Shown: piece by piece, positions 5,031 to 39,295 of the stretch
Layout of the letters: each line of letters opens with the position of its first letter
How positions within the stretch are numbered: the first letter of the stretch is position 1
Origin: a virus
Length of the DNA stretch: 42,343 nucleotides
Reading direction: 5' to 3' (one strand)
Virus record (IMG/VR): IMGVR_UViG_3300023294_000030
Coordinates: 1-42,343 of that record
Made by a program: the position numbers and the translations under genes
Notes under the pieces: generated by a model
What the model was told of the DNA's origin: nothing
What the model saw: only the letters and a program-made list of their open reading frames with translations
Databases searched by the model: none

Positions 5031-5720
5031 TTAACTACTTTCCTTTTTTTGTTGGTAATACTGGTCTATTTTCATCAAAAATTTGCCTTTATAGTCTTTA
5101 AACTCACTTCCATTGATAATAAACCTCTGAAAGAAGCAATCTGGAGTGCACATTAGGATCACTCCTTGCTCCATATCGGTCCCATACACCTGATCATGAG
5201 CCAAAGCATAGGCTGCCATTTGTAATTTATAGTCTTCAATCCATTCTGCTTTTTTAGGTTTGTTCGTTTGTTTGAAATCAATAATGGACTCTCGCCCCAT
5301 GTACACACCACATAGATCAGTTGCTCCTGCATACAATCCAGGATAATACAATGTGACCTCAGACCCGTATATTTCTTCTAATTCAGGAAATCCTTTGTCT
5401 ATGATCGTTTCTGCCATTCTCTTGGCCTGTACGCCTAAATCTGTTAGATCTAGGAGCCCTTGTCCTTCGACATGATGCTCTAAATAGTTGTGCATAGCCG
5501 TGCCTCTCGCTGCTGCAGTGTTTTTCACTCTTTCTGCCTCAATTTCGCCCACTTTCTGTCTCCATTTAGCCAAGGACGCTCGCTTCTCGCTGCTCTGTGT
5601 GGCCGCTAGAACCGTGGTAACCGAAGGTAGCTTCTTCTCTTCACCTACATCATAGTGTCTTGCATTATTAATCAAAGACCGCATGGACTTCGGGTATTCG
5701 TATAGTTTATTCCATTTCAT
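5031..5720 (-). CDS. PD-(D/E)XK exonuclease (Cas4/RecB-like)
   Basis: A 229-residue nuclease with all RecB-family motifs: H77 in RGTAMHNYLE, D135 in YAGATDLCG, D148 and K150 in SIIDFKQT, and Q167/Y171 in YKLQMAAYAL. Phage members degrade host DNA or process recombination ends. It is the last gene of the minus-strand operon that starts near 9772. Its ATGAAATGGAATA start sequence is repeated at the start of the inserted HNH gene, and the TGA of HNH overlaps its ATG. A three-unit GC-rich heptad patch lies in codons near residues 42-48. Confidence 0.85.
   Translation of the reverse strand: MKWNKLYEYPKSMRSLINNARHYDVGEEKKLPSVTTVLAATQSSEKRASLAKWRQKVGEIEAERVKNTAAARGTAMHNYLEHHVEGQGLLDLTDLGVQAKRMAETIIDKGFPELEEIYGSEVTLYYPGLYAGATDLCGVYMGRESIIDFKQTNKPKKAEWIEDYKLQMAAYALAHDQVYGTDMEQGVILMCTPDCFFQRFIINGSEFKDYKGKFLMKIDQYYQQKKESS
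5576..5596 (-). repeat. intragenic heptad patch
   Basis: Plus-strand units ACGCTCG, CTTCTCG and CTGCTCT in register, i.e. CNAGNNN on the coding strand. It sits in the exonuclease between its N-terminal region and the His motif. A looser set (AGCCGTG, CCTCTCG, CTGCTGC) lies at 5496-5516. Confidence 0.55.
5709..5720 (-). repeat. direct repeat flanking the HNH gene, copy 1
   Basis: Coding-strand ATGAAATGGAAT at the start of the exonuclease, identical to 6265-6254. One further A is shared (13 bases in total). Confidence 0.8.
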
Positions 5721-6283
5721 TTTATTATCCCATCCTTTTCTAGTTTATTTTGCCAATCCACACTTATCTTTTGTTTTTTAGGACCTTTATTATTATCCGA
5801 TAAAGATAACCAGCGTAAATTTTCAATTTTATAATCTAATACATTTTTATTAATATGATCTACTGCACGTAAATTATTTTTATTTTCAATAAAAGCCAAT
5901 GCAGCAAGTCTATGTATTTTGGTAGCCAAATTTACTTTTTTATTATTTTTATAACCAAAAACAAGGACAGACGGATATCCATCGGTTAATTTAGCCTTAG
6001 CCGATAATATTTTCCCTGTTTTAATATTTTGAACAAAAGGATAAATAGGTCCATCTTTTATTCTATAGACATTGTACCCACCTGTTTTAAAAATACGATA
6101 TGTATTTTTTGGTAACGTAGAAAATTGATTATAATGAATACGATAAAAATCATCAGGTAATTCACTTAGATCAACGTAATCAATATTTTTAATTATTGCC
6201 TTATCTTTTTTTACAGGAAATAAATCTAACTGTATACCTTCGGTTGTAGTACTATTCCATTTCATATAATAATTTATCTCCAT
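5717..6283 (-). CDS. HNH homing endonuclease
   Basis: A 188-residue protein with an HNH core in its C-terminal half: KIHRLAALAFI, then VDHINKN and NLRWLS, typical of free-standing phage homing enzymes (HNH_3/NUMOD type). The N-terminal half carries DFYRIHYNQFSTL and tandem YRI/YPF segments of the kind that flank such domains. It would nick or cut phage DNA lacking the gene and promote its own spread. It sits between the Mrr-fusion gene and the exonuclease and overlaps both. The start may be ATG 6283 or ATG 6265; the latter lies in the duplicated ATGAAATGGAATA. Its codon use is more AT-rich than that of the exonuclease, consistent with recent entry. Confidence 0.8.
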   Translation of the reverse strand: MEINYYMKWNSTTTEGIQLDLFPVKKDKAIIKNIDYVDLSELPDDFYRIHYNQFSTLPKNTYRIFKTGGYNVYRIKDGPIYPFVQNIKTGKILSAKAKLTDGYPSVLVFGYKNNKKVNLATKIHRLAALAFIENKNNLRAVDHINKNVLDYKIENLRWLSLSDNNKGPKKQKISVDWQNKLEKDGIIK

Positions 6284-8663
6284 CTATTAGTTCTACATTA
6301 TGTTTTTTTGCCACTTCCATAGCCCCAGGGGTAAACCTAGAACTAGTAATCACCATCATTACTTTTTCATACTCATCATCCTCTACTTCTTTAGCACCGA
6401 TCAATTCTCTAATCACATCAGGACCAATTGGTTTTTTCCAATGTTTGCACTGGACAATAAGTTTTTTAATAACACCATCTTTAAATTCTTTTAAACCACG
6501 TATATCAATACCCCCATCGTAATTATTTCGATCTATAATATCCCAGCCCTTTTTTCCCATATATTTAGACATACGTTCTTCAAAACCAGCGGGGGATAGT
6601 TCATTAATAGAAACTGCTTTATGGGATTCATGATCACTTACATATAACAACCCATGAAGACTTTTAGTTCTATAAATCACTTCTTTTTTTGTCATGCCTT
6701 TGGATCCCCAGATAGATTCTTTTACAAAAGTATAGTTTTCAGGAACAGGAATATTGTTTCGTTCTGCCAATAACAATTGGTATTTAGAAGGTTTAGATCC
6801 GGAAGGTAATTTTCTAACGTGCGCTCTTCGTTCTCCACTAAATTTCTTGTTCTCATTATAAAAAACCCTTTCTCGTTTTTCGTTACCTTTTAATCTGTTA
6901 TAACGAACACGAGGTAAATAACAATGACGGGCTATATCGGTATGAACTCCGGTAGGCACACGTTTTCCCCGATATTGCATCGTAGAATCTCGTTCAATTA
7001 AAAATTTCCAATCCCGAACGGCAGCAGCCACTTTCAAATAAATAGATTCACAAGATTTTTCTAAATTAGAATCTTCATGAATTTGTCCAGAGTTTAAAAT
7101 ACAATAATTAAAATCCATTGTTTCTTTATCAATAATATCAAAAACAACTCTTTCTTTTTCATCGGTTATAAAAAAAGTAATCCAATGTTTAGATTCAATA
7201 AACCGAACATATTTAAAATTAGGATCATCTTTTATTTCAAAATAAGCATTGAAAGGAATCCATTCTCCGGTACCATTTTGAAAAGACTCACGTAAAATAT
7301 TTTTTATGGTATTCGTAGTTTCTTCATTTAACTTTTTCAGGTGGGTAGGCATAATATCGGTAACATCAAATTCGTCTATATTTTCATAATCAAGATAAAT
7401 TGATTTTGTATTAACACATAATCCATTTTCAATGCGCATAAGCGCCTGATGGGGTTCCAACCATCCACAACTCATTATTAGTGGGGTCATCATAGTCCAA
7501 TATACATAACAATCTGGATTTATTTCCGAGGGCTTAGAAGGGCCCATTTCATGGTAATTAATAAAACCTGTAAAAGGTAAAGAAGTACCATGATTAGTAT
7601 GATACATCAAAATAGAAACATAACTAATACGATAAATAATTTCACTATTTGATATTTGATATTTTATTTTTTCATGAGATTTATAGTTTTTTAATATGTC
7701 CATACTACTTTCCAAAGAAAGTATTTTTAAAAGATTAAAAGTAGCAGACGTTATTTTTCCAAGATCTCCGTGACATTCACTAAACGAAGCGGACCATCCC
7801 TTTTTTATTTTTTCTTGAGGGATATGAGGAACAATTTCATGTACCATGTCAATTAATCTCATTAATTGTTCCATTAACATTTTGTAATAATTCATTTGTA
7901 ATAAATTTAATTTATTAGGTATATTTTTAACTAAATTTATTTTTTCTTTTGCCAATTCTGATTGTTGTATAGACAGTACTAAATCGTTTATGTGAAAAGA
8001 TTCTATAGCACCTTTTTTTAAAAAACTAGGCCCATGTTTTAATATTTGTGTTGTGATTTCGTGAAATTCATATTTTTTATTTTCATATTTTTTTAACATG
8101 TGTTCATAAAGCGAATTAATTGCTTTATTATTTAATAAAGTAATTTTAAAGGCAGTTGTTTTTGATATTTTTGGACAAACAATATAAAGAACACATTTTT
8201 CTTTTAGCTGTTTTAATAAATTTAAATCATCTAAAGAAGCTATCACCCCTATTAAAACACCATCATGGATACTTTGAAGATTTAATAATTTTTCTAAATG
8301 TTGACTAGTTTGTTCTTCATCCTCTTTATAATTACATAATTCAATGAAACCATATCCTTTTTTTCTATAATCTTCTGGCGAAACTAATAATAAACCATCT
8401 TTATAGGGTGTAATAGGAATTGCTTTATCTTTTACAATTTCTTTATATTCAGAATAATCAATTTGTTCATAATCTTTAAGTTTTATAGCAACACCATGAA
8501 GTTTGTGAAATTTTTCTTGATACTTATCAGACATATCAAATTTCTGTTTTGAAAGAAAAACATCAGGAAGCGTAAAACCTATGTTATACACATCTTCTTT
8601 AATTTCTATTTCATCGTTAACTAAAACATTTGAGTTTTCAAAATTAGTATTTAAATTATTCAT
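6252..8663 (-). CDS. large protein with C-terminal Mrr-type restriction endonuclease domain
   Basis: An 803-residue protein. Residues from about 693 to the end form an Mrr_cat-like PD-(D/E)XK domain: GFEERMSKYM, GWDIIDRNNYDGGIDI (catalytic Asp near 720), LIVQCKHW (Gln-Cys-Lys near 738-740), ITSSRFTPGAMEVA and VELIDGDKLL. The 690 residues before it match no family I recognise. They include charged helical segments and Trp/His-rich stretches (MYHTNHGTSLPFTGF, CYVYWTMMTP). A basic linker at about 590-640 is rich in Arg. Mrr domains cleave modified or foreign DNA, so the fusion may act on host or competitor DNA, but this is inference. AAAGGAAGAAA precedes the ATG. Confidence 0.7.
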   Translation of the reverse strand: MNNLNTNFENSNVLVNDEIEIKEDVYNIGFTLPDVFLSKQKFDMSDKYQEKFHKLHGVAIKLKDYEQIDYSEYKEIVKDKAIPITPYKDGLLLVSPEDYRKKGYGFIELCNYKEDEEQTSQHLEKLLNLQSIHDGVLIGVIASLDDLNLLKQLKEKCVLYIVCPKISKTTAFKITLLNNKAINSLYEHMLKKYENKKYEFHEITTQILKHGPSFLKKGAIESFHINDLVLSIQQSELAKEKINLVKNIPNKLNLLQMNYYKMLMEQLMRLIDMVHEIVPHIPQEKIKKGWSASFSECHGDLGKITSATFNLLKILSLESSMDILKNYKSHEKIKYQISNSEIIYRISYVSILMYHTNHGTSLPFTGFINYHEMGPSKPSEINPDCYVYWTMMTPLIMSCGWLEPHQALMRIENGLCVNTKSIYLDYENIDEFDVTDIMPTHLKKLNEETTNTIKNILRESFQNGTGEWIPFNAYFEIKDDPNFKYVRFIESKHWITFFITDEKERVVFDIIDKETMDFNYCILNSGQIHEDSNLEKSCESIYLKVAAAVRDWKFLIERDSTMQYRGKRVPTGVHTDIARHCYLPRVRYNRLKGNEKRERVFYNENKKFSGERRAHVRKLPSGSKPSKYQLLLAERNNIPVPENYTFVKESIWGSKGMTKKEVIYRTKSLHGLLYVSDHESHKAVSINELSPAGFEERMSKYMGKKGWDIIDRNNYDGGIDIRGLKEFKDGVIKKLIVQCKHWKKPIGPDVIRELIGAKEVEDDEYEKVMMVITSSRFTPGAMEVAKKHNVELIDGDKLLYEME
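6254..6265 (-). repeat. direct repeat flanking the HNH gene, copy 2
   Basis: Coding-strand ATGAAATGGAAT, here forming the last codons and the stop of the Mrr-fusion gene (GAA ATG GAA TAG) and the internal Met-Lys-Trp-Asn of HNH. Confidence 0.8.
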
Positions 8664-8684
8664 TTTCTTCCTTTCTTTTATTAT

Positions 8685-10389: not shown

Positions 10390-10844
10390 GGTTTATATAC
10401 TGTTTTCCCTAGCTCCTCGTCTCTCGCCGCTCGAAGGGAGTTGCTACGGTTCTTCTCTGAGTTCCATGAGACATGGACCCAGCCACTGTCGGGCTCACCA
10501 TCTCGATAAAACTCGAGAATCAATTGATCGTACTCTAAATTTTCTTTAATCCAAGTAGCTAGGATTTTATTATCAATCCCTGGAACTTCTAGGTCTGCCG
10601 CGTTGCCGGTTGCATGTTGACTAGTTATTTTAGATCCTATGGCAATACACAATTCAGGACTACGGTACCCTGATGAAATCATTACCGGTGCTTCAAAATG
10701 AGACCGGATGGGTTGTAATACATTGACACACAAAGCTTTTAAATTATCAATGTGGGCAGGTGATGGGTTGTTGGGTATCCCTTTTCGCTCTGCTGTTTGA
10801 GACTTGACGAGTTCGCTTAATTGAAAATTGGCTGAGAGTTTCAT
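10383..10844 (-). CDS. endolysin, peptidase M15 (D-Ala-D-Ala carboxypeptidase-like)
   Basis: A 153-residue M15A-type peptidase. The zinc ligands are visible: H77 and D84 in SQHATGNAADLEV and H124 in WVHVSW, with the family's SSGYRSPEL before them. It would cleave peptidoglycan cross-bridges to release progeny. No signal peptide is present, so it needs a holin; the small membrane proteins at 20068 and 20673 are candidates. Its place inside the replication operon rather than beside a holin is typical of many marine podoviruses. A heptad patch of at least three units lies near its C-terminus. Confidence 0.8.
   Translation of the reverse strand: MKLSANFQLSELVKSQTAERKGIPNNPSPAHIDNLKALCVNVLQPIRSHFEAPVMISSGYRSPELCIAIGSKITSQHATGNAADLEVPGIDNKILATWIKENLEYDQLILEFYRDGEPDSGWVHVSWNSEKNRSNSLRAARDEELGKTVYKPW
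10413..10433 (-). repeat. intragenic heptad patch (endolysin)
   Basis: Plus-strand units CTCCTCG, TCTCTCG and CCGCTCG in register. The same register is loosely kept to about 10482, with units such as TTCCATG, AGACATG and GACCCAG fitting NNNCNNG. Confidence 0.55.
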
Positions 10845-11482
10845 TATTTTTTTTCTATATCGTAAAACATATCATCAGTGTCGTCTGTTTTCCAGTCCTT
10901 GTTCTCTACGTTCCACGTTGTAGTTTGGACTTTATAGTCTGGCTTAGCGTCACTAGTAGTAAAACTAGGTATGTTCCACAGAATACGATTATTAGGCTGA
11001 GCTGCATAATTACCGTTATCAAGAGCCAGAATGTGTGCACACTTATGTTCATGAGAGATTTCAGAATGTTCTGTATCCAAAACATTGGAGTCTGGATGAG
11101 CCCAGTCAATGGTGAATAAATATTCTCCAGGATACATTTTTTTATCCTTGCCAAAAAATTTACCACGTTGTCCATCTAAAAAAGAATAATTAGTAACAGC
11201 AGGATGATAACTAAAACAGTTCCACAACTGTAACTCGTCAACTTGCATATCTGGCACTTCGGTTCTTTGAAGATGTTTTTGAAAAAAAGCTGAGATAGGC
11301 AATCGATAGTAGACCGCACCATTCGGTAGTAAGGCGTGAAACAAGATGGCTCGGGTGGCGATTGATGCAAACCCGAAGACCACACACTCTTCACTTTGTC
11401 CATGATGACTTTTAAGATCATAAAGATATTCTTTCCTAACGGAACAATATAAAGGTGGTATATTTGAGTTAAGATACGCCAT
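10844..11482 (-). CDS. conserved hypothetical protein next to DNA polymerase (212 aa)
   Basis: The protein begins MAYLNSNIPPLYCSVRKEYL, continues with VFGFASIATRAILFHALL and LPISAF, and has WNCFSYHP, DWAHPD and ILALDNGNYAAQPNNRILW farther on. It looks like a folded, mixed alpha-beta protein and I recall it as a regular neighbour of the polymerase in pelagiphages, without function. The start lies three bases after the polymerase stop and its own stop meets the endolysin start. Confidence 0.65.
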   Translation of the reverse strand: MAYLNSNIPPLYCSVRKEYLYDLKSHHGQSEECVVFGFASIATRAILFHALLPNGAVYYRLPISAFFQKHLQRTEVPDMQVDELQLWNCFSYHPAVTNYSFLDGQRGKFFGKDKKMYPGEYLFTIDWAHPDSNVLDTEHSEISHEHKCAHILALDNGNYAAQPNNRILWNIPSFTTSDAKPDYKVQTTTWNVENKDWKTDDTDDMFYDIEKK

Positions 11483-11485: not shown

Positions 11486-13345
11486 TTAGCCATAAATGTC
11501 TCCCCAGCTTTTGCCGGATTCATAATCTACTTTGTTAGGAACCTTGAGTGTAACAGCATTTTCCATAATCTCAACTATCTTTTTAGCATGTTCTGGAGAC
11601 TCTACCGAGATATCTAATTCATCATGTATTTGAATATGTGGTATAATACCTTCTTCATAAAGATCTAACATAGCTTTTTTAGTCATGTCGGCTGCACTTC
11701 CTTGTATCAATTTGTTTAACGCTTTGTAAGTCATGGCTCTTTTAATTCGTCTACGTCCATACGTTAGTTCTGCTTCTTCATAAGTCATAGGAGTGTGCAT
11801 ACCAAAAGTATCCGGTTCCCATTTATTAAAACGACATCGTCGTCCTAGTAAGGTTCCAATAGATCCGGATCCTTGCGCATGAGAAGAAGTTCGATTCATT
11901 AAATCTTTTACAAACGGAACGTTCTGGTGATATTGATTAAATAATTGTTCTGCTTCTTGTTTGGTACTTAATCCTAGTTCTGCTTGTAATTTTGCTTTAC
12001 CCATTCCATAAAACAATCCTAAGTTAATAGTCTTAGCTTGAGATCTAGAAATGCCTGCCATGTCTGCCACGGTTTGGTGAAAGTCTACGGAGTTATCTTT
12101 AAACTGAGCCACAATTTTAGTAACCGATTCATCAAAACAAATCGGTTCAGTGGAAGCTGCATAGTGTACCACTAATCTTGGTTCTTGTTGAGAGTAATCA
12201 AAACAACCCCACAAATGATTTTCTTCTGGAATAAATAATCCACGAATCATAGGACCTAAATCTTTATTTCTAGCAGGAATTTGTTGTAGGTTAGGATTAG
12301 AATAACTAAATCTACCGGTAACGGTTCCTCCTTGATCAGAACGAATAGGATTAATATCCGCATGAATTCTTCCTTTATGAGAATGTTTTAAAATCGTATC
12401 AATAAACGTAGTGTGAGCTTTGTTGATTTCTCTGGCTTTTGCTATCTTCTGTACTAAAGGATGTTGATGGGTAGACAAATAATTCTTAGTAAAAGAAGGA
12501 GCATTTGATTTTGCCGTTCGTTCATAAGTTAAACCAAGTTTATCAAACACGGTTGCAATACTTCTTGCTGCCCATATTTGTGGTTCTATTCCGGTTTCTC
12601 TTTTTATATCTAACAATAAGGTTTGTTCTTTTGAAACTAATGTTTTTTTCAGTACATGCGCTTTTTCATTGTCCACACGAACGCCTTTAAATTTCATATC
12701 AATCAAACAAGGAAACAATCTAGTTTCTAAATCAAATACTTCGGTTAAGTTTTGTTTATTAATTTCTACGGATAATGTTTTAAATAATTGTAAAGTTAGT
12801 TCAGCATCTTTTTCTGCATAGGCTCCCACATACATTGCCGGAAGTTTGTACATTTCTGATTTAGCATCCACGCCTGCTTGTTCGGCCGCTAGTTTTAAAC
12901 CTTTTTCATCTTTGACTTCTCTTAAATAATCATAACCAATACTATTTAAGGTATAAGAAAATCTATTTTCATCAATCAAAGAAGCCATCACCATCGTATC
13001 TACTAGGTGACCATTAATAGGAATACCTAGGGCACGAATCCAACAAACATCGTACATAGCATTGTGAAATATTTTTACTCCATCGGTTGCACATACTTCT
13101 TTGAACCAATCTAATACAATTCGTTTATCTAAGTTACCTTCTCTATGTGCAATAGGATAGTATCCAGACCAGCCTTCAATGGCTACGGCAATACCAATTA
13201 CTTCTCCGTTACCAATGACAGCACCGGATCCTCTAGTTTTTAAATCAGGATCCCTAGTCTCTAAGTCAATCGCAATATACTTTGCTTTACTTAGATCAGG
13301 AAACGTTTCCGGACAATTCCATTCGGTCGCTGCTTCAAATAACAT
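11486..13345 (-). CDS. polA: DNA polymerase I, family A with 3'-5' exonuclease
   Basis: A 619-residue replicative polymerase. Exonuclease motifs are intact: D27 and E29 (AIDLETRD), D99 (NAMYDVCW), Y176 and D180 (YAEKD). Polymerase motif A has D383 (FDYSQQEPR), motif B reads RSQAKTINLGLFYG, and motif C has D575 (IHDELD). There is no 5'-nuclease domain, as usual in phages. The residue equal to E. coli PolA Phe762 is Leu442. In marine viral PolA surveys leucine here has been tied to slower, more accurate synthesis and possibly temperate or slower life styles; this is a correlation. Confidence 0.9.
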   Translation of the reverse strand: MLFEAATEWNCPETFPDLSKAKYIAIDLETRDPDLKTRGSGAVIGNGEVIGIAVAIEGWSGYYPIAHREGNLDKRIVLDWFKEVCATDGVKIFHNAMYDVCWIRALGIPINGHLVDTMVMASLIDENRFSYTLNSIGYDYLREVKDEKGLKLAAEQAGVDAKSEMYKLPAMYVGAYAEKDAELTLQLFKTLSVEINKQNLTEVFDLETRLFPCLIDMKFKGVRVDNEKAHVLKKTLVSKEQTLLLDIKRETGIEPQIWAARSIATVFDKLGLTYERTAKSNAPSFTKNYLSTHQHPLVQKIAKAREINKAHTTFIDTILKHSHKGRIHADINPIRSDQGGTVTGRFSYSNPNLQQIPARNKDLGPMIRGLFIPEENHLWGCFDYSQQEPRLVVHYAASTEPICFDESVTKIVAQFKDNSVDFHQTVADMAGISRSQAKTINLGLFYGMGKAKLQAELGLSTKQEAEQLFNQYHQNVPFVKDLMNRTSSHAQGSGSIGTLLGRRCRFNKWEPDTFGMHTPMTYEEAELTYGRRRIKRAMTYKALNKLIQGSAADMTKKAMLDLYEEGIIPHIQIHDELDISVESPEHAKKIVEIMENAVTLKVPNKVDYESGKSWGDIYG

Positions 13346-13618: not shown

Positions 13619-15138
13619 ATGATTTCTTCTCCTATGTTGTATTGGTAATCGTAATCATGACTCATGATGTACAATCGTTCTTTGGCTCTAGTTACTCCCA
13701 CAAAAAACAATCGGTGTTCTGTGTCTTTATCTCGCAAAGCCGAGTCGTAGATAATTTTTTCTAAATCTGTAAATAAAATAACATTGTCACACTCTTCTCC
13801 CTTTACACTATGAATGGTTGCAATTTTAATTCTAGCTTTTTTACTTAGATCCTCGCTGCTCGCCACTAGTTCCTGGATATGTAATTTTTGTTCTTCGGTT
13901 ACATTCAATAGTTCCCAGCTGCCCGTTACTAGAAGCCCGTGGTTCAGCATCAACTCATCGATGTCTACGGTATCCACTCCGTCCAGAGACTTGCCTCCAG
14001 AGAATTTATATTTCACTTGCTCATCTTTAACGGTTAAGTATTCATAGACCTGTTGTGCTTCTGCACCTGAAACACTGGCACCTTTGTTTAAACGATTCCA
14101 GATACTAATTGCTTGTACTAAGTCATTAGGAAGTAAAGGATTATATTTACATTCAAACCTATGTCCCAGAGACATCATATACTCTACAATGGGTTTCATT
14201 TGATTGTTGGTCCTAGTTAAAATCATCCAGTTACCTGTACTAAAATCTAATTGCTCTAAACTGGCATCTTCCACTACCATCCCGGTTGCATCTCTAGGGA
14301 TCCAAACCTTCTCTCTTCGTTGCTCTACGTTCTCTAAGATAGACATAGCTACTCGATGCACGCTTCTAGGGACTCGTCTCGATTCTGTTTGTGGATCTAA
14401 AGTTCCTTCTAGGTTAATAAAAATAGTAGGGTCTGCACCTTGGAAAGAATAGATTGTCTGATCGTCATCCCCCGCAATGTAGGAACGTTTACATCGGGAT
14501 TCAATGTAAAAGAACATATCCCATTGCAAGGGACTTAGATCTTGTGCTTCATCAAGAAAGACAACGTCGAGGGGTGGACATTTATCTTTCTTAACAAACT
14601 GGGATATCATGTCTGAAAATTCAAACATGGTAAAATCTCTTTTAAAATCTTCTAGGTCTTGTTTAATTTGTTGACATAAACCCATGTCAATAGAATCAAT
14701 AACATCTAATTCTAGTGCGGCATCATCTAGTTCAGGGATCTTTTTAGATCTCGCATAGTCAATTACTTTCATATAATTGTTTCGGTACTCTGGAATTCCA
14801 CTTTCATTGGTAATGGTTTCAAACTCTAGGTCCTGACAAATGCCTGAATAGTTTTTAAATCCTTTCCAGTTGGTCCCTTGAAGTAATTGTGTATTGGTAT
14901 TGATGCCTAATTCTCTCGTCCCTAAAGCATGTAAGGTACTAACCAATACTTCTTTATTCGGATACAACATACTAATTCTATTCCTTGCTTCATTGGAAGC
15001 TGCATTACTAAACGATACATATAAAACTTTATCAGGACTGGTGTGTTCTAGTTCACGGGCCAAGTGATGATTGATTAACCGGTAGGTCTTACCCGTTCCA
15101 GGAGGTCCAGGAATAATGGTTCTATTGGAATGGAGCAT
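13615..15138 (-). CDS. UvrD/Rep-like SF1 DNA helicase
   Basis: A 507-residue helicase. Visible motifs are Walker A GPPGTGKT (residues 11-18), FSNAASNEA (Ia), VVFLDEAQDLS (II), YIAGDDDQTIYSFQGAD (III), IATIHSVKGEE (V) and LFFVGVTRAKERLYI (VI). It is shorter than UvrD and lacks most of the 1B/2B insertions, as in phage Dda-like enzymes. It would unwind DNA in phage replication, coupled to the primase (17-base overlap) and the polymerase. The segment between residues 255 and 430 holds five GC-rich seven-base periodic patches. Confidence 0.85.
   Translation of the reverse strand: MLHSNRTIIPGPPGTGKTYRLINHHLARELEHTSPDKVLYVSFSNAASNEARNRISMLYPNKEVLVSTLHALGTRELGINTNTQLLQGTNWKGFKNYSGICQDLEFETITNESGIPEYRNNYMKVIDYARSKKIPELDDAALELDVIDSIDMGLCQQIKQDLEDFKRDFTMFEFSDMISQFVKKDKCPPLDVVFLDEAQDLSPLQWDMFFYIESRCKRSYIAGDDDQTIYSFQGADPTIFINLEGTLDPQTESRRVPRSVHRVAMSILENVEQRREKVWIPRDATGMVVEDASLEQLDFSTGNWMILTRTNNQMKPIVEYMMSLGHRFECKYNPLLPNDLVQAISIWNRLNKGASVSGAEAQQVYEYLTVKDEQVKYKFSGGKSLDGVDTVDIDELMLNHGLLVTGSWELLNVTEEQKLHIQELVASSEDLSKKARIKIATIHSVKGEECDNVILFTDLEKIIYDSALRDKDTEHRLFFVGVTRAKERLYIMSHDYDYQYNIGEEII
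13849..14376 (-). repeat. cluster of intragenic heptad patches in the helicase
   Basis: Runs of plus-strand NNNCNNG heptads: four units at 13849-13876, four at 13912-13939 (63 bases on, same register), three at 13980-14000, and four at 14349-14376. A weaker run with C at every fourth position lies at 14308-14335. Each run stands out as a GC-rich island in an AT-rich gene. The period is not a codon multiple. Confidence 0.55.
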
Positions 15139-16669
15139 CTTTAGCTTTATTCTTTCTAATGATTACGGTATCTAAATCTATTTTATCAACAGCCCAGATT
15201 CGTTCTGTTTTCTCATCAATCTTTTTAAAGACTTGCTTACCTTTAAAAATGTTTTGAACTAATCTCATGGTTTTATTCTTAGGATAGGTTTTATCCGGCC
15301 AAGACTTAGTTCGTACTAAAGCTCTCCAGAAATCTTTCCATCTAAAGTAACACACACCTTCTTCTATAAATGCTTTGGACTTTTTAATATCCGATAAAGA
15401 TTTACCAGGGGCTCTGCTAACAAAATCTACTAAGACTTCTTTTAACTGAACATCAATTCTCATGTCCTCAGGAGCAGGTAAAGGTTCATTCATTTCATTT
15501 AATAACTTAGAAATCATTTTTCTCCAGATGAGTTTGGCAATTGGAAGTAATGGTTTGTTCAACTGAGTTAAACATACAATAGAAAACTTTTCAGGATCAT
15601 GTAATATTTCAGGTTCTACTTCTAAAGTTTCTCCATCTACGGTTACAAAAAACAACGGTGGATCAGAATCTAATTTTTTAATTTGTGTAATCTCCGGCAT
15701 GGCTGCACCTTCTTTTCCATACTTTCTTGTGTAACAAAGTTTCTCCTGACAAAATCCACAGATAGGTTTGTCATTACATTTGTAATCATAATTCTTTTTT
15801 TCAATAGAGTTAATTACACTGATTACATCATTGGCTTTTAAAGGTGGATTTATATATCTTGCGATGTTATATTCTTCGACTTTATTTTTCCAAGTATCTG
15901 GATTAACTTTTCTTAAATACACTCCAATATTAAACAGACCATTATTTCTTCCTGCATGATCTACATCTTCTCCTTCTACAATCGCACCATTAGATAAAAT
16001 GGTTTGTAAACAAGGTGGTCCATCAGGAAAAATAGTTTCTTCGGTTTGATTCTTTTCTAATTGAACATGTATTAGTTGCTCTTTGGTCAAAACATGTTTA
16101 TTATAATAGGCCGAAAATTGTTCCATGGTTAATGCCTTGCCAACATCATCAAACGCATAACGAACCGAACGATCCCCACCGTGATACGGCATGTTTAAAA
16201 AATTACCTACGTCTCCTCGTTCTGCTTTCACACTATTTTGTTTAGGAAATATTTCTGTCTTGGCATATCCTAAGATAGATGCCATCGCTTGTAACTTAGT
16301 TCTCATTAACGAGGCAGGTACAAACTCACTGGTAAAACAAAACACATGTGCTCCACCGGATTTTGATCTACATAAGATCAAAGGTAATTCAAATTTTCTT
16401 ATCTTTTTTATAAATGCAGTATGATCAAAATTATACACATCAATATCAATAGCACCCCATTTGCATTCGTTGTTTTCATTAATAGGTACAATTCCTAATG
16501 CTGGTTCTACTCCGTCTATATGAGATTGCCATAAGTGATCAGTAACAGGTTGTTTAATAGTAAAAGATCTAACTTCTTGCTTTCCGTTCGGTCGAACTTC
16601 AGCTGTCTTTTTGGTTTGACCATAAGCAGTATCTAATCCCTTAAAGATTTCTTTTAGTCTTTCTAACAT
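15122..16669 (-). CDS. AEP-type DNA primase (TOTE/primase-polymerase-like)
   Basis: A 515-residue protein with an archaeo-eukaryotic primase core: D75 and D77 (GAIDIDVYNFD) and H108 (RSKSGGAHVF), followed by AERGDVGNFLNMPYHGG. The central part has a PriCT-like segment (ARYINPPLKANDVISVI) and a cysteine cluster C298, C304, C307, C312 that could bind zinc or iron-sulphur. The C-terminal part is helical and likely a DNA-binding winged helix. It makes primers for the family A polymerase. ATG 16669 is preceded by AGAGGGATATA; a strong RNA hairpin lies just upstream. Confidence 0.8.
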   Translation of the reverse strand: MLERLKEIFKGLDTAYGQTKKTAEVRPNGKQEVRSFTIKQPVTDHLWQSHIDGVEPALGIVPINENNECKWGAIDIDVYNFDHTAFIKKIRKFELPLILCRSKSGGAHVFCFTSEFVPASLMRTKLQAMASILGYAKTEIFPKQNSVKAERGDVGNFLNMPYHGGDRSVRYAFDDVGKALTMEQFSAYYNKHVLTKEQLIHVQLEKNQTEETIFPDGPPCLQTILSNGAIVEGEDVDHAGRNNGLFNIGVYLRKVNPDTWKNKVEEYNIARYINPPLKANDVISVINSIEKKNYDYKCNDKPICGFCQEKLCYTRKYGKEGAAMPEITQIKKLDSDPPLFFVTVDGETLEVEPEILHDPEKFSIVCLTQLNKPLLPIAKLIWRKMISKLLNEMNEPLPAPEDMRIDVQLKEVLVDFVSRAPGKSLSDIKKSKAFIEEGVCYFRWKDFWRALVRTKSWPDKTYPKNKTMRLVQNIFKGKQVFKKIDEKTERIWAVDKIDLDTVIIRKNKAKDAPFQ

Positions 16670-20267: not shown

Positions 20268-20666
20268 TTAATATTCGTATACACCGCCTTTAAGGTCTAC
20301 TAAACCCGTTTCGCGGTTCAAAAACTTGTATTCGATTTTAGTTATATCAAAATCTTTTTTAATTTTTTCACATATCACTTCAGGGTCAAATTCCCCGCAA
20401 GAATATACGTCAAATTGCATTAAAGCTGGGGAAGGTTCATCCCAGACATGCATCACAATGTGTGATGTTTCTATGATAGCTGCGCCGGTAATACCTCTAT
20501 TACCTGGAACGTTATGGTAGATCACATACGGACCCATCAAGACCTTCATGTTAATACATTTAATGAAGTCTTGCAACCATTCTTTTAAGAAGGTTTCATC
20601 CATCGGTGGATTTACCGCTTCTGCTCGGACAATAAGATGTTTATGAACGAGTAGACTATCTTTCAT
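20268..20666 (-). CDS. speD: SpeD-like pyruvoyl-dependent decarboxylase
   Basis: A 132-residue protein with the bacterial class 1B S-adenosylmethionine decarboxylase layout: N-terminal HKHLIVRAEA, the self-cleavage region IIETSHIVMHVW, and FDVYSCGEF. S68 would form the pyruvoyl group, H73 matches the processing His and C90 the catalytic Cys. The usual Glu-Ser cleavage site is Thr67-Ser68 here, and the segment between H73 and C90 is two residues longer than usual. speD homologues are known in marine phages, and some bacterial and phage homologues have changed substrate to ornithine or arginine, so the substrate is open. It would alter host polyamine supply. Confidence 0.8.
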   Translation of the reverse strand: MKDSLLVHKHLIVRAEAVNPPMDETFLKEWLQDFIKCINMKVLMGPYVIYHNVPGNRGITGAAIIETSHIVMHVWDEPSPALMQFDVYSCGEFDPEVICEKIKKDFDITKIEYKFLNRETGLVDLKGGVYEY

Positions 20667-26462: not shown

Positions 26463-27347
26463 TTACCTACCCATCAATGACATTAATCCACCGTAAGCAG
26501 CTGTTGGTCTTGGATTGAACATTCCATATAAATTAGCTAACGTTTGTGATGCTGCTAAACCAGGGCTAGTCATAATCGGTTGTTGAGGGCTTTGAGGTGT
26601 ACCACTTGCAATTGTTCCATATATACCTGAAGCAGTTCCTAACCTTTGTAGTGGATATTGTTCTTGTAAAATATTTCCTTGTTGAATAGCATCTAGAATA
26701 GATTGAGAGTAATTTTGCGCTCCTGCACCTGTAGCCCCTAATTGTCCGGTGATACCTGATTCAAAAGCTTGTTGTTGTTGACCAAAACCTAATTGATTTT
26801 GTAAACCTTGTTGTTGTAAACTTTGTGCTTGTGTTAAACCTTGTTGTCTTAGTGCCGCTAGCTGTCCTGCATCTGAAATATCTCTACCTCTTAAATATTC
26901 TGCTTCTCCAATTTGTCCTCGTCCTTGTCCATAAGCTCCTTGTGCATATTGACCTCCTCGTAATGTATTTAACCCTGACGCTCGCTGCTCGTTCATTAGT
27001 GCTTGAGTCGCGTCAATGACTTCTGTTTGATACGGAGACATATACGATTGATATGCACTTGGCGCAGCTAAATCTTCTGCTGCTTGTAAATAAGGTTGAT
27101 ATGCTGCAACACCGGTTCCAGCGCCTACTCCTGTTACATCTCCTTGAGGAGAAAATTGTAAGGATCCTAATCCTGCTTGCGTTGCGGTTCTTTGTTGAGA
27201 TGCTTGAATTAATGGATTAACTTGGGAAACCTTAGGCGCCATTCCACCTATATTAACTGGTTGGTTAATTTGATCTATGGTAAGATCTGTTATTCGTTCA
27301 CCCGCTGGTTCTAAAAAAGGAGCAGGGGTAGTAATATTATAAGCCAT
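26463..27347 (-). CDS. Gln/Gly/Ala-rich virion protein (294 aa)
   Basis: The middle of the protein is rich in Gln, Gly, Ala and Leu (LTQAQSLQQQGLQNQLGFG), with helical Gln repeats, and carries Tyr-Gln-rich segments (YQPYLQAA, YQSYMSPYQTEV). This composition is typical of internal or ejected virion proteins of marine podoviruses. A two-unit heptad patch occurs at 26978-26991. Start and stop abut the neighbours on both sides. Confidence 0.65.
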   Translation of the reverse strand: MAYNITTPAPFLEPAGERITDLTIDQINQPVNIGGMAPKVSQVNPLIQASQQRTATQAGLGSLQFSPQGDVTGVGAGTGVAAYQPYLQAAEDLAAPSAYQSYMSPYQTEVIDATQALMNEQRASGLNTLRGGQYAQGAYGQGRGQIGEAEYLRGRDISDAGQLAALRQQGLTQAQSLQQQGLQNQLGFGQQQQAFESGITGQLGATGAGAQNYSQSILDAIQQGNILQEQYPLQRLGTASGIYGTIASGTPQSPQQPIMTSPGLAASQTLANLYGMFNPRPTAAYGGLMSLMGR

Positions 27348-29324: not shown

Positions 29325-30243
29325 TGATAGCTCCTTTTAAAAAGTTATTCCATAACGAACCAATACGAGTCCAGTTATAAAATCGGTTAGTATAAATAAT
29401 TTGATCTTGTAAATGTTTTTGAACAATCTCGTTGTCTAAATTACCTACCGCTGTTTCAATAGCATAGGCAAAGTTTTTAGCTAAATTTGCATACGATTTT
29501 TGATAAGGAATATAGGCCGCATATTCTGCACACGTTTCATATAAAGCTCCATAATTGGTAGTAATACAATAGAGTCCTGCCGACATAGCTTCGAGCGCCG
29601 CGACGCACGAAGTCTCTTCAAAGATACTAGGATAAGCAAAAATATCATATTTAGGTAACTGTTTTATGATATACTCATTCGGTTTATATCCAATGTAATT
29701 TACATTGGGTAGTTGAATAGCTTGTGTAAACAAAGCTTCAAAATTTTTATTGTTTGCTTGTTTGAATTGATCTCCATAAATTTGAGTAGAAGAATATACA
29801 TCTAAAGTAATTAGTGGATTGGTAATCATTTGCATAGCAGCTAAAATTACATTTAATCCTCTCCAAGGAGTAGAATGAAAAATAAGTTTGATAGGATCTC
29901 CTTTTTTATAACTCATTGCTCTAGGGGTTATTTCAGGGATACCATTTTTAATAACTAAACATTTCTCCGTAGGGATATCAAACATCATTCTATATTTTTC
30001 ATAGTTCCAATGAGAATTAAATACATACCAATCATATTTAGAATGATTCGAAGTATCTTTAAACCAAGGTGCTAAATTAGCTTGATCATATGAATTATGT
30101 TGCCATAAGATATTTACTTTATCTTTAGACAAAGGAATTTTTTCAGGGATAGAAGTAGTGATTTGAACTTGATCTAATAACCCTTTATCCGCATGTCTTT
30201 CTAAAAACTGCACTTGCAGTTCGGTTCCACCAAGTGGCTGCAT
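29308..30243 (-). CDS. GT-B-type glycosyltransferase (GT1/GT4-like)
   Basis: A 311-residue enzyme: MQPLGGTELQVQFLERH at the N-terminus, VFNSHWNYEKYR, IKLIFHSTPWRGLNVILAAM (donor-domain start) and FAYPSIFEETSCVAALEAMS, the E-x7-E type motif of retaining GT4 enzymes. It is shorter than usual at its N-terminus. With the GT-A enzyme it could decorate fibres or the host cell surface. A three-unit heptad patch (29589-29609) lies right in the E-x7-E motif codons. Confidence 0.75.
   Translation of the reverse strand: MQPLGGTELQVQFLERHADKGLLDQVQITTSIPEKIPLSKDKVNILWQHNSYDQANLAPWFKDTSNHSKYDWYVFNSHWNYEKYRMMFDIPTEKCLVIKNGIPEITPRAMSYKKGDPIKLIFHSTPWRGLNVILAAMQMITNPLITLDVYSSTQIYGDQFKQANNKNFEALFTQAIQLPNVNYIGYKPNEYIIKQLPKYDIFAYPSIFEETSCVAALEAMSAGLYCITTNYGALYETCAEYAAYIPYQKSYANLAKNFAYAIETAVGNLDNEIVQKHLQDQIIYTNRFYNWTRIGSLWNNFLKGAINARSK
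29589..29609 (-). repeat. intragenic heptad patch (glycosyltransferase)
   Basis: Plus-strand CTTCGAG, CGCCGCG and ACGCACG in register. It resembles the patch at 38851-38871 base for base (NTCGAGCGNCGCG in common), though the genes are unrelated. Confidence 0.55.
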
Positions 30244-30750: not shown

Positions 30751-30915
30751 TTACGTTAAAAACCATTCTATTTGCGCTTGTTCATTTTTTAAATCTTTTT
30801 GATAACCAAAGTTTAACTCATTCTTTAATGTATTCAACCCTTCGTTCAACTGTCGTTGATTAAACACATCATATTCTTCTCTTGGTTCTGGAATCACTGC
30901 AGTAATTTTTGCCAT
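30751..30915 (-). CDS. small hypothetical protein (54 aa)
   Basis: The start is set at ATG 30915 (MAKITAVIPEPREEYDVFNQ), which overlaps the stop of the gp10-like gene; the longer frame to 30966 adds a segment that is the out-of-frame image of that gene. The product ends in a helical Lys/Asn/Glu-rich part. Short proteins with this EYDVFNQRQLNEG pattern occur in marine phages near tail genes. Role unknown. Confidence 0.65.
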   Translation of the reverse strand: MAKITAVIPEPREEYDVFNQRQLNEGLNTLKNELNFGYQKDLKNEQAQIEWFLT

Positions 30916-32855
30916 TATCTTCTTCCTCCTGCATGAATATCTAACCTCAAGGTTCCATATCTCCAAGTTTCATCCTGACCATCGTTTTCTATTTTTAAAC
31001 TAACCTGCCTACCTCTAACCCTAGTGCTTACAAAATTAGTAGTGGTACTAATAGTAAAAGGACCAGTAATTAAAGATCCTGAAGCAGATGATTGTGAATC
31101 GGTGGCTGGATAGTTAGTAAAGAACATGGTTACTTTTGCATTTCCACTTAAGTTTTTAAAGTCTGGTATAAATCTAGATACTCTCATAATATATTCACCA
31201 TCTCCTGCAATTCCTTGTTCGGAAATATCATAATCCCCTGACAAAATATAAGAAGCAATAGCAGTAGTAGATCCTCCAGCGGTTACTTCATTGGTCCCTG
31301 TTTCTTGAGCCCAGTACTGAGAAGAACCATATCTATTGGTTACCCCTTGAATGGCTGGGAAGCTCGGAGTTCCATTAGTAGTAAATTCAGTAGCGTAGGG
31401 TAAATCATAGGTAGTAGCATCATTATAGGTAGTTCTAGATAAAGAACCGGTAGTCCAACTTTGTTCGATAAAGTTATATACTACATTCCTATTAATTTGT
31501 TGCGAGCCGCTCGCTGCATAGTACCAACCCACTTCATTAAATAATGAGTTGTGATATCCATAGGTAATTTGATTAGCATCATAATTAATTCCTAATCCAT
31601 CTCCTTGAGTGGTAAATACAAAATCTTCTACTAAGGATGGAAGTTGTTTTACCGTTCCATCGTACATAAAAAATCCACCACCAAAACCCATCCAGTACAC
31701 CGCTCCTTGTGCATAGACGGCAGTGTGTTGCCCTAAACATCCACAGTTGGAACCAACTTGTCTTAATGAAAAAGTGTAAGGAGTTCCCACAAATTGTATT
31801 ACATAAGCTGCTTGATCGGTTAACACTAATACATAATCTTTTCCTTGTACGGCTGTTACGATTTCATTTCCTTGGTCAAGCAAGAAAGTACCTGCTGTAT
31901 TAGTCGCGGTAGGAGCCCAAGTATTAATATCTTCTTGATTAGAAAAACGTACCAACATTTTGTTTTGTGTAGAAGCATCTCCGACAGTAGTTTCGGTTCC
32001 CATTAAAAATAAATGTCTATCTCTGTCAGAAACTAAACTCATTAATGATCTAGTAGGAGCATCTGCTACGATAGCAGCTCTCGTTTCTAATGCTGCAGGC
32101 TCTCCTGCTAAAGGAGTCCAAGTATAGGTAGAACCGTTTCTAGCAGTTGCAACTAACAACTGTCCATAGTTATCGAGCGACCAGGAGCCAGGATCTAAGA
32201 CCACGGTAGAAGCAGATCGTGCAGTTCCCCATGCTTCTCTTCCATAAGGACCGGTTCCAAATCCATAAGCGGGGGTTTCAAATACAGGACCAATGGTTAC
32301 ATAAGGCGTAACCGTTGCAGAACCTTGAGTAGACATACCTGAACCAGATTCGGTAGTAGACATAGTAATAGTAAAATCATCATCATCTGTGGAAGTAACT
32401 TCATAAGTATTGTTAGTAAATTGACTAGCTGAAAAACCTGTTTCACCCCCAGTAGGTAAGGTAATACTAGTAAAAATAATATAAGAACCGTTTGCAACTC
32501 CATGAGCTACTTTATTAACCGTAACGGTTGCTGATCCAGTAGTAGAAGTAAAGGTAAATCCTGTAATAGGGGTCTCTAAAGGAGTAATATCATAAAACGC
32601 TCCTTCATAATAAATAACTAGCACTTTAGAAGTACCTAGTGCTGCGTATCGAACACCAGTTAAATCAGTCCAAGTGTGTTGTCCTCTGACAGGTCCTGCT
32701 ATGGTAGAGTTAACTAATTCTTCCCAACCACCTATTTTTTCAGGTTGGCCGTATCTAAAACGTACGTTATCACCGTCTACCCATTGCCCTTCGGCACCGG
32801 TCTCTGTTTGTTGTTTGTTGAATCCAGGCTTAAATTGTATCTTTTGTAAAGGCAT
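30915..32855 (-). CDS. P22 gp10-like packaged-DNA stabilisation / tail protein (646 aa)
   Basis: The N-terminus IQFKPGFNKQQTETGAEGQW, then NVRFRYGQPEKIGGW, is the signature of the gp10-type tail-hub proteins (PG....T...A.G.W.D...VRFR.G.PEKIGGW). The remainder is beta-rich with many Thr, Gly and Ser, as expected for a propeller-like tail-hub domain. It plugs or extends the portal and keeps DNA inside the capsid. A strong hairpin lies upstream (32878-32912). One heptad patch is at 32171-32191. Confidence 0.8.
   Translation of the reverse strand: MPLQKIQFKPGFNKQQTETGAEGQWVDGDNVRFRYGQPEKIGGWEELVNSTIAGPVRGQHTWTDLTGVRYAALGTSKVLVIYYEGAFYDITPLETPITGFTFTSTTGSATVTVNKVAHGVANGSYIIFTSITLPTGGETGFSASQFTNNTYEVTSTDDDDFTITMSTTESGSGMSTQGSATVTPYVTIGPVFETPAYGFGTGPYGREAWGTARSASTVVLDPGSWSLDNYGQLLVATARNGSTYTWTPLAGEPAALETRAAIVADAPTRSLMSLVSDRDRHLFLMGTETTVGDASTQNKMLVRFSNQEDINTWAPTATNTAGTFLLDQGNEIVTAVQGKDYVLVLTDQAAYVIQFVGTPYTFSLRQVGSNCGCLGQHTAVYAQGAVYWMGFGGGFFMYDGTVKQLPSLVEDFVFTTQGDGLGINYDANQITYGYHNSLFNEVGWYYAASGSQQINRNVVYNFIEQSWTTGSLSRTTYNDATTYDLPYATEFTTNGTPSFPAIQGVTNRYGSSQYWAQETGTNEVTAGGSTTAIASYILSGDYDISEQGIAGDGEYIMRVSRFIPDFKNLSGNAKVTMFFTNYPATDSQSSASGSLITGPFTISTTTNFVSTRVRGRQVSLKIENDGQDETWRYGTLRLDIHAGGRR
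32171..32191 (-). repeat. intragenic heptad patch (gp10-like gene)
   Basis: Plus-strand TATCGAG, CGACCAG and GAGCCAG, all NNNCNNG in register, GC-rich within an AT-rich gene. Confidence 0.5.
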
Positions 32856-35036: not shown

Positions 35037-35064
35037 TTTGTAGAATATATAACAAAAATGTCAA
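35037..35064 (-). promoter_or_regulatory. possible promoter of the oxygenase trio
   Basis: Minus-strand TTGACA (35064-35059), 16 bases, TACAAA (35042-35037). The -35 is perfect and the -10 is weak. The 55-base gap is unusual in this tightly packed region. Confidence 0.35.
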
Positions 35065-35073
35065 GTCAGTTAT

Positions 35074-35964: not shown

Positions 35965-35984
35965 TTAAAAATCCTTTTTGGAGA

Positions 35985-36473: not shown

Positions 36474-36523
36474 ATTTTTTCTCCTTAATATTTATATTTT
36501 ATTTTGTAACATTTGTCTATTAC

Positions 36524-37441: not shown

Positions 37442-37454
37442 AGCTGATTACCTC

Positions 37455-37817: not shown

Positions 37818-37829
37818 AATTTACTCCTT

Positions 37830-38393: not shown

Positions 38394-38431
38394 ATTTTAT
38401 ATAATTCCTTAATTAATAGTTTTTATTCAAA

Positions 38432-39295
38432 TTATGCGGCTGTGTCAATATTATTCCAAGTGACATTAGATCCGGTAGAAACTTCAGTATACGCTACAGA
38501 GGTGCCTGTGTCAACAATTGTCCATATCTGAGACACTTCATTTCCAAGCTCTAAAGTTAACTGATTTCCTGTTAATAGTACGGATCCTGAGATCGTAAAA
38601 GTAACACTTCCTGCAGTCGTATTGATTTGTTGTCCAGTAACATCTACTAGAGTATTGGCATCTAAAACAGCGGTTCCTAAAGTGGCACTTATTTGTTGAC
38701 CGGTTAAAGCCACATCCGGTGCTACATCTACGGTTCCTACAGCTGTTGATAATTCATTTCCTACAACCGGTATATTTGCAATACCACCAACCACTACAGT
38801 TCCAGTATCGGTTTCTAAAACAAAACCAGTTACATCTGCAAAGGTAATAGCATCGAGCGTCGCGGTGCCAGAGACAATAGATAATTCATTACCGGTAACA
38901 TTAAATGCTACATCGGTTTTACCAATAGCATCTCCTAAAGAAAGTGGGATTTGATTTCCAGATGCCATAGCATCCGGTGAAGCGTCTACAGAACTTAATG
39001 CAAAAGCAGCAGTAACACCTGTTGGTGAAGCAATTGTCAAAAGATCTAATGTAGTATCTCCAAGATCTAAATTTAATTGTGAACCAGTAATAGGAACTTG
39101 AGTAGATATAGAATTGTTTCCCCAGTCAAGAGTACCCCAACCGAGTTCTCTTCCCCATCCTGAATTTAATTCTACAGTAGTAGTTACGTCTCCTTGAGAC
39201 GTACTTAATTGAGTACCAGTGACAGATATACTTACATCACTTTGTTCTCCCCAGCTGTTTATTCCCCAGGTTAGTGTACCCCAAGTATTGACCAT
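38432..39295 (-). CDS. repetitive tail-fibre-like protein (287 aa)
   Basis: The N-terminus is Trp/Gly-rich (WGTLTWGINSWGEQ). About ten copies of a short beta unit of the form V-x-V-T-G-x-Q-[LI], followed by G-x-A, make up the remainder (VTGTQLS, ITGSQLN, VTGNELS, LTGQQIS and VTGQQIN). It probably forms a trimeric beta-helix fibre. Contains the heptad patch at 38851-38871. Confidence 0.7.
   Translation of the reverse strand: MVNTWGTLTWGINSWGEQSDVSISVTGTQLSTSQGDVTTTVELNSGWGRELGWGTLDWGNNSISTQVPITGSQLNLDLGDTTLDLLTIASPTGVTAAFALSSVDASPDAMASGNQIPLSLGDAIGKTDVAFNVTGNELSIVSGTATLDAITFADVTGFVLETDTGTVVVGGIANIPVVGNELSTAVGTVDVAPDVALTGQQISATLGTAVLDANTLVDVTGQQINTTAGSVTFTISGSVLLTGNQLTLELGNEVSQIWTIVDTGTSVAYTEVSTGSNVTWNNIDTAA
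38851..38871 (-). repeat. intragenic heptad patch (fibre)
   Basis: Plus-strand CATCGAG, CGTCGCG and GTGCCAG, all NNNCNNG in register. Closely similar to the patch at 29589-29609. Confidence 0.55.

Follow-up and report, generated by a model that had tools for sequence, protein, structure and literature searches.

Runs of C..G heptads at fixed codons of conserved genes in a marine phage group: candidate sites for a binder with a seven-base step

Repeated sites for one regulator are known from RNA, as in the (GAG/UAG)n sites of TRAP with KAG triplets every 5-6 nt, and from temperate mycobacteriophages, whose stoperators are dispersed single 13-bp sites. Several other systems are built of heptads. 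In the omega (ParB_pSM)/parS system of pSM19035, each omega dimer is described as taking one 7-bp unit, four contiguous units are needed for full activity, and the sites overlap promoters (PMC9499535). In Beggiatoaceae, one fixed heptamer, TAACTGA, is reported as direct repeats at many places, mostly just before start codons, with the binder unknown (PMC4679880). In Streptomyces, heptameric direct repeats in promoters are described as the sites of SARP regulators (PMC5930380). The subject here is a seven-base pattern of C and G in the virus record IMGVR_UViG_3300023294_000030 of IMG/VR, whose full 42,343 bases (G+C 0.358) are called the window. The pattern occurs as short patches of consecutive CNNG heptads inside conserved genes and as arrays of the heptad CAAGCNN.

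The PolA protein of the window is nearest to those of phage 023Pt_psg01 (61%), Pelagibacter phages HTVC027P (59%) and HTVC023P (55%), and phage DSL-LC04 (50%). HTVC027P and HTVC023P are isolates whose records give HTCC1062 as host, and phages of the HTVC023P type are described as widespread in the sea (PMC9599517). The relatives were 246 IMG/VR loci, comprising the best 80 each for PolA, the protein of 30915-32855 and the exonuclease, and 6 for a 1381-aa protein. These loci cannot be counted as independent: among them are several strains nearly identical to the window, and 53 locus pairs (64 loci) have at least 2 kb in common at 99.5% identity or more.

A run is defined as consecutive CNNG heptads of period 7 on the coding strand, counted at a length of at least three, four or five units. 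The original prediction had listed ten patches with every heptad fitting NNNCNNG on the plus strand. Nine of them do so, and the seven-base C..G observation is confirmed; the tenth, at 5576-5596, is not a full patch, as two of its three heptads fit and the third unit reads CTGCTCT. The patches are also GC-rich, as had been stated, with a G+C of 0.57-0.76 compared with 0.358 for the window. The genic patches and runs are the following.

2961-2981, minus strand: patch CTCGCCT CTAGCTA CGTGAAA in gene 2850-3218, its skeleton kept in most relatives
5576-5596, minus strand: previously listed patch in the exonuclease gene, two of three heptads fitting in the window genome
10406-10433, minus strand: patch of 4 heptads in the endolysin gene, one heptad more than had been listed
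13849-13876, minus strand: patch of 4 heptads at helicase codons about 421-430 (site -531), all-or-none in homologues
13912-13939, minus strand: patch of 4 heptads at helicase codons about 400-409 (site -594), occupied more often than any other site of the helicase
13980-14000, minus strand: patch of 3 heptads at helicase codon about 380
14349-14376, minus strand: patch of 4 heptads at helicase codon about 255, also in the distant locus L038 and less complete in L044
21642-21676, minus strand: patch of 5 heptads in the last part of the gene for the 1381-aa protein
26971-26991, minus strand: run of 3 heptads in gene 26463-27347
29589-29609, minus strand: run of 3 heptads in the glycosyltransferase gene
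31294-31314, minus strand: run of 3 heptads in 30915-32855, the gene of a virion structural protein
32171-32191, minus strand: run of 3 heptads at codon about 220 of gene 30915-32855, where relatives often have one too
38851-38871, minus strand: run of 3 heptads in gene 38432-39295

Outside intergenic arrays, the window holds 13 runs of at least three units, 5 of at least four and 1 of at least five. Plain synonymous-codon shuffles gave means of 1.6, 0.1 and 0 (49 chosen genes right of position 3270, 40 shuffles for the run counts) and of 1.6, 0.19 and 0 (open reading frames (ORFs) right of 3270 with 80 codons or more, 200 shuffles, none of which reached any of the counts). Two stricter nulls either kept the amino acid and the G+C of each codon or swapped synonyms only inside 24-codon blocks. 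Against these, the 13 runs of at least three units compare with 7.1 and 6.4, and the 5 of at least four with 1.8 and 2.0, with 0 of 200 shuffles reaching either count; at five units the excess is gone. The stricter nulls shrink the run excess and leave it in place in the window.

With regard to other spacings, synonymous shuffles of the window place CNNG at period 14 in excess as well (5 vs 0.8 at three or more units), and periods 4, 5, 6, 8, 9, 10, 11 and 13 are without excess, save 2 vs 0.2 at period 4. A pooled scan of base pairs, offsets and periods 4-15 covered the window, HTVC027P, HTVC023P, 023Pt_psg01 and DSL-LC04 and included one array-encoding ORF of HTVC027P; C..G at offset 3 and period 7 came first (35 four-unit windows vs 2.7), followed by its shifted twin. 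In islands chosen by G+C alone, C-C coincidence peaks at lag 7 in the window and at lags 7 and 14 in 240 relatives, with lag 21 fifth (ratio 1.09); G-G is highest at lag 7, and G-C at lag 4, plus 11 in the relatives. Four control phages lack such island lags, and a G+C-rich roseophage has a lag-7 ratio of 1.15 and no lag 14.

The patches had been described as scattered across the genome. This is true in part: they recur at fixed codons (within 4) of a few genes, and other genes are without them. The recurrent codons are 252, 380, 400 and 420 of the helicase; 64, 100, 356 and 524 of PolA; about 92 of the exonuclease; 1316 of the 1381-aa protein; 212 of the glycosyltransferase; and 220, 324 and 512 of the structural protein. 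The PolA site at codon 524 is weak, as it tracks the amino acids EHGPGIK and its skeleton positions vary. No run was found in homologues of gene 10844-11482 (54 kb) or of the small terminase (38 kb), and one in 27 kb of SNF2-helicase homologues. Heptad runs are also missing from 84 kb of homologues of the primase (15122-16669, AEP-TOTE type), whose neighbours, the helicase and PolA, do have them.

The C and G of each heptad form a skeleton whose conservation was followed at third codon positions, ascertained in the window only and in runs of at least three units unless stated. In homologues of 60-75% identity, 220 of 438 skeleton third positions are conserved vs 2551 of 9774 other third-position C/G and 69 of 377 non-skeleton C/G in patches. 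The corresponding counts are 188 of 244, 3468 of 8012 and 99 of 215 at 75-99% identity, and 269 of 859, 1989 of 9295 and 133 of 645 at 40-60%. Conservation of skeleton third positions is roughly double that of other third-position C/G. The advantage is smaller for runs of at least four units, where the skeleton stands at 0.45 vs 0.27 (0.28 in patch) at 60-75% identity and at 0.91 vs 0.75 (0.83 in patch) at 75-99%. Tested per site, the 24 skeleton sites average 0.44 and the 465 others 0.29 (p 0.0015); for runs of at least four units, p is 0.027.

The clearest skeleton site is gene 2850-3218, beside the arrays, where the skeleton is kept while the protein changes. Its product has sub-threshold Pfam hits only (Hjc, E 0.017; VRR_NUC, E 0.15). 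From 95 rows found, 73 were kept (window included) after removal of duplicates and of rows without the protein motif. Out of six skeleton letters, 35 sequences keep 6, 18 keep 5, 9 keep 4, one each keeps 3 and 2, four keep 1 and five keep none; the 53 sequences scoring 5-6 span 37 hexapeptides. The mean score is 4.73 in phase, compared with at most 2.04 in the six other phases and with 3.55 expected from the same amino acids and local codon usage. In addition, array-type CTTGNNG units (e.g. CTTGCGG CTTG) stand in the register of the patch in relatives such as L199, L248, L392 and L434. In the region 14528-14900 of HTVC023P (L090), a weak homologue (30%) of this gene ends at 14797, and CNNG runs of 4 and 3 units come next, at 14810 and 14883; this may be the corresponding spot, written in different letters.

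Related IMG/VR phages share the trait, as do HTVC023P and, less firmly, HTVC027P. Across the 246 loci (2.02 Mb of ORFs, array-encoding ORFs included, one shuffle, reversed motif GNNC as control), 686 runs of at least three units were seen, with 114 shuffled and 156 in the control, and 247 of at least four, with 25 and 6. Without array ORFs, runs of at least four units number 52 in the PolA set (1.7 shuffled, 5 control), 48 in the structural set (1.3 and 0) and 67 in the exonuclease set (5.3 and 1). In 80 viral loci picked by their arrays there are 52 such runs vs 4.7 shuffled, yet 21 in the control. A four-unit window occurs in 25 of 27 larger contigs, giving 191 windows in total vs 4 reversed (arrays included, overlapping windows counted), and 17 contigs read in pieces hold 32 strong genic segments vs 1.2 shuffled and 3 in the control.

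Among the isolates, the first 50 kb of HTVC023P has 3 runs of at least four units vs 0.65 and 0.46 under the strict nulls (0 of 100 shuffles reach), and 5 of at least three vs 3.3 and 2.1 (reached by 14 and 3 of 100); its last 10.9 kb adds no run. The first 50 kb of HTVC027P is not significant at three units (7 vs 6.25 and 4.7, reached by 36 and 8 of 100), and its last 7.6 kb holds 2 more runs of at least four vs 0 in plain shuffles. No run of at least three units was found in ORFs of HTVC010P, HTVC019P and 023Pt_psg01 (each whole) or of HTVC008M (50 of 147 kb). In the first 50 kb of two G+C-rich phages, the counts at three, four and five units are 19, 6 and 4 for DSL-LC04 (shuffles 12.2, 1.3 and 0.3; control 26, 4 and 2) and 21, 2 and 0 for the roseophage (shuffles 23.8, 2.4 and 0.1); both are near their controls at three units. 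A trait of host genomes was considered and set aside: the five-unit pattern occurs in 275 of 385 alphaproteobacterial genomes, but by eye it is, in most of them, about as common as the reversed control. A few of these genomes exceed the control (e.g. G313, 18 to 0, by eye and not totalled), and most of those below 1.5 Mb have neither.

The second form of the pattern, the CAAGCNN arrays, lies at the left end of the window.

52-77, plus strand: 4 CAAGCNN heptads, with TTGACA at 91-96 following after 13 bases
1394-1419, plus strand: array of 4 CAAGCNN heptads forming C-terminal codons of a small ORF, then TGCGACA
1903-1928, plus strand: 4 CAAGCNN heptads joined directly to TTGACA (offset 0), ahead of the GP88-family gene 1984-2583
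2664-2934, plus strand: five CAAGCNN arrays (5, 5, 5, 9 and 9 units) between the GP88-family gene and gene 2850-3218

Part of the last group also encodes the C-terminal tail of gene 2850-3218, and units in the window arrays run in one direction only (29 forward matches, 0 reverse). Some arrays adjoin promoters. Among 356 distinct arrays, related phages included, TTGACA (at most 1 mismatch) lies within 22 nt of 105, compared with 35 in one shuffle, and 49 of these are at offset 0. A -35-like box, either TTGACA-like or GCGACA, occurs in the first 22 nt of 127 arrays, and 95 of the 127 have a -10-like box at 15-19 bp (52 at 17). A plain promoter scan of window positions 1-4600 gave no excess (8 vs 12.4 in shuffles). 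Two plus-strand ORFs, 467-670 and 1722-1949, are near-duplicates (MKRINHNDL... and MKRIKHNDL...) that both end near heptad stretches followed by promoter-like sequence; the left end may be a string of small gene cassettes with arrays between them.

Neighbouring units share the same NN in 29 of 804 cases in phage arrays (0.04, below the 0.08 expected from NN frequencies) as against 205 of 261 for the arrays of bacteria. Simple slippage therefore fails as an explanation of the phage arrays, and simple sequence repeats were rejected. In 139 phage arrays of at least five units, neighbours have the same NN in 20 of 583 cases vs 44.2 shuffled, and heptads three apart (21 bp) in 49 of 305 vs 24.7. 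This likeness could come from in-frame 21-bp duplication or from two-turn helical phasing, which are inseparable here because 200 of 218 arrays lie within open frames.

The ladder of C and G suggests that DNA or RNA is read in seven-base steps at these stretches. The patches and arrays are tentatively proposed as candidate nucleic-acid sites to which dimers would bind cooperatively, one to each 7 bp, a reading to which somewhat less than an even chance is given. Briefly, a protein would bind cooperatively, most likely on double-stranded DNA, with one two-fold-symmetric dimer every 7 bp; each dimer would read the two guanines of the CNNG core, which is identical to its reverse complement. The operators would be those arrays that precede the -35 box of a small gene cassette or are fused to it, and patches of 3-5 units in tolerant codons would be dispersed secondary sites, gained and lost. 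It had been suggested before that the heptads bind something with a seven-base step, and this is the part of the original prediction that is favoured here, because skeleton positions are conserved beyond the rest. Such a binder would probably be the simplest nameable cause of the fixed C and G, the gain and loss by units and the arrays at promoters. Protein binding, the dimer geometry, DNA over RNA, the link between operators and patches and any function are what we infer from these sequences. It is possible, at rather long odds, that the ladder is a second DNA- or RNA-level code over conserved genes, maintained as codons and amino acids change and read by a phage-specified oligomer that would link promoter arrays with dispersed genomic sites.

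Several results weigh against a binder of this kind. The global lag-7 autocorrelation, proposed as a check, is weak over the whole window (z 1.6 for C, 2.1 for G), and some other lags give a larger |z|. In a strict-null scan of the window alone, C..G at offset 3 and period 7 ranks just sixth among 911 pairs (z 4.0). Skeleton letters at codon positions 1 and 2 have no excess at 60-75% identity (0.67 and 0.76 vs 0.74 and 0.77). Inspection by eye found no promoter adjoining eight genic patches, 229 of the 356 arrays lack a -35-like box in the first 22 nt, and G001, G005 and G016, among the 17 contigs, have no patch at the strong-segment threshold. One of three array stretches tested, 1384-1430, folds better as RNA than its shuffles (3 of 200 reach). 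The CNNG core alone holds little information, and the letters differ between phages, so one conserved binder would not explain them. As to the binder itself, Pfam named no ribbon-helix-helix (RHH) regulator, a class of short proteins, among the part of the ORFs that was scanned, namely 30 proteins from the window and 10 small ones from HTVC027P. GP88 was rejected as the binder because of its distribution: it fails to track the trait, being present in 023Pt_psg01 and G005 and absent from the whole HTVC023P record (tblastn).

The way in which patches come and go bears on the best surviving alternative. The idea that heptad runs are inserted was not borne out, since patch codons align without gaps in homologues of at least 50% identity, with the exception of 1 row of 352. 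The gap-free rows are 53 of 53 at helicase codon 252, 54 of 54 at each of codons 400 and 421, 106 of 106 at PolA codon 100 and 84 of 85 at codon 220 of gene 30915-32855. Homologues without a patch have ordinary A+T-rich codons in its place; in these alignments the patches come about by substitution and not by insertion. Gaps are commoner only in distant helicases (below 40% identity), where codons 396-412 have an insertion in 12 of 22 and a deletion in 18 of 22. An intron, intein or homing insertion was considered and rejected, as there is no large gap at patch codons. The one marked length hot spot is codons 525-530 of the PolA gene (11486-13345), with insertions of 6-39 residues in homologues, and the nearby codon-524 patch is the weak one.

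Conversion of patches into tolerant sites, also part of the original prediction, may occur, as suggested by block switching and by near-identical patches in distant clades with closer relatives lacking them. Short blocks of about 30-35 bp might be moved by gene conversion or micro-recombination between co-infecting phages with no binder at all, as a selfish or neutral spread of a G+C-rich heptad cassette, which is considered unlikely. It accounts well for helicase site -531, which is all-or-none: among 73 homologues, window strains included, 57 score 0-3 of 8, none 4-6 and 16 score 7-8. This site is present in the window, absent from its sister L001 and nearly letter-for-letter the same in a distant clade, and it changes twice on a helicase tree (quick method, patch columns left out, 74 rows, several long branches). 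To the eye, two more sites recur in this way: codon 100 of PolA, in L185 and in the L017 clade, and codon 252 of the helicase, in window/L001 and in L038/L044. However, site -594, with five changes on the tree, is less clean (24 homologues at 0-2, 17 at 3-6 and 32 at 7-8), and block transfer leaves unexplained why the CNNG skeleton survives across 37 hexapeptides while most other letters change, why so short a tract with diverged flanks would recombine, and why the primase and other genes have no patches. Patch recurrence may reflect either block transfer or repeated selection, both being compatible with it.

It is less likely still that the heptads act in RNA, where a ring or filament would, like TRAP but with a longer step, read one triplet within CNNG per seven nucleotides. 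The 140 distinct non-array runs prefer CGAG to CTCG (126 vs 39) and CGGG to CCCG (57 vs 8) on the coding strand, with the background skewed likewise. RNA folding of nine genic patches gave nothing beyond shuffles (z -0.88 to +1.18), and Rfam (gathering thresholds) and tRNA searches returned nothing; TRAP sites are unstructured too. On the other hand, the window arrays read CAAGC when taken in the direction of the GP88-side genes. On the strand with the sense of pol, to which the genic patches belong, they read CTTG, and RNA would therefore not present a single form of the unit. Arrays fused to -35 boxes point to DNA, CNNG periods 5 and 6 are not enriched, and just 7 runs lie in opposite-strand genes, which is few for judging polarity. 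Rho rut sites were set aside, since a conserved G would be out of place in them.

Chance clusters of G+C-rich codons, recounted through shared ancestry, with period 7 a look-elsewhere effect, are improbable and already disfavoured. Ancestry and the 53 overlapping locus pairs do inflate the group counts, the codon-524 site of PolA tracks amino acids, and HTVC027P under the strict nulls, the sixth rank of C..G and the weak global autocorrelation all fit such a view. Against it stand the window run counts under the strict nulls, the rank-1 pair of the window scan, which is the period-7 twin G..C at offset 4, the first place of C..G in the pooled scan (that HTVC027P array ORF included), lag 7 in islands chosen by G+C, the skeleton conservation and the site in gene 2850-3218. 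The least probable view separates arrays, as operators or insulating elements of small gene cassettes, from patches of another cause (e.g. sites for replication, recombination or packaging machinery), in line with HTVC023P, which has genic patches and no CAAGCNN array in its whole record, and with G016 and G001, which have arrays and no strong patches, but array-type and patch-type units replace each other in one register in gene 2850-3218.

Other genes of the window include 6252-8663, encoding a protein of 803 aa that has a restriction endonuclease domain of Mrr type at its C-terminus (E 4.8e-21) and just 2 homologous alignments within the 246 loci, and 20268-20666, a phage-borne S-adenosylmethionine decarboxylase (Pfam AdoMet_dc, E 4.5e-17).

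If the cooperative seven-base binder proves true, a marine phage group related to the HTVC023P type would carry a code overlapping its genes, by which protein evolution is constrained at fixed sites, and a binder with a seven-base step, new to description, would be present in marine phages. To our knowledge, no family has such a pattern inside coding sequence, and literature searches aimed at it, with coverage excluding bioRxiv and most subscription papers, found no report. SARP repeats are spaced about 11 bp, few per promoter and not known from coding sequence. As for TRAP, a scan made with CNNG gave no enrichment of periods 5-6 here. Bacterial CAAGCNN tandem repeats (L263-L342) occur in many phyla, often in Pseudomonas and mostly with identical units among the matches listed. 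They have the same CAAGC core and period 7; unlike the phage arrays, their neighbouring units are usually identical (205 of 261), and the 80 bacterial loci have no genic CNNG excess (299 vs 310 shuffled, control 294). The Beggiatoaceae heptamer TAACTGA is not enriched here (5 two-unit matches with at most 3 mismatches vs 8.3 by chance), and these phages keep only the C and G of the heptad inside genes.

The omega/parS system differs in its consensus, WATCACW, which is not enriched here (8 two-unit matches with at most 2 mismatches vs 7.1 by chance), in its RHH protein, for which no gene was found among the 40 proteins scanned, a part of the ORFs, and in that the patches here lie inside conserved genes and the window array units all point one way. 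Because the consensus is absent and no RHH protein was found, membership in the omega family is not claimed. It shares with these phages unspaced 7-bp units in contiguous runs. With regard to promoters, a -35-like box adjoins 127 of the 356 arrays, and none was seen by eye at the eight genic patches. By analogy, the proposed binder may work on its sites much as omega does on the heptads of parS.

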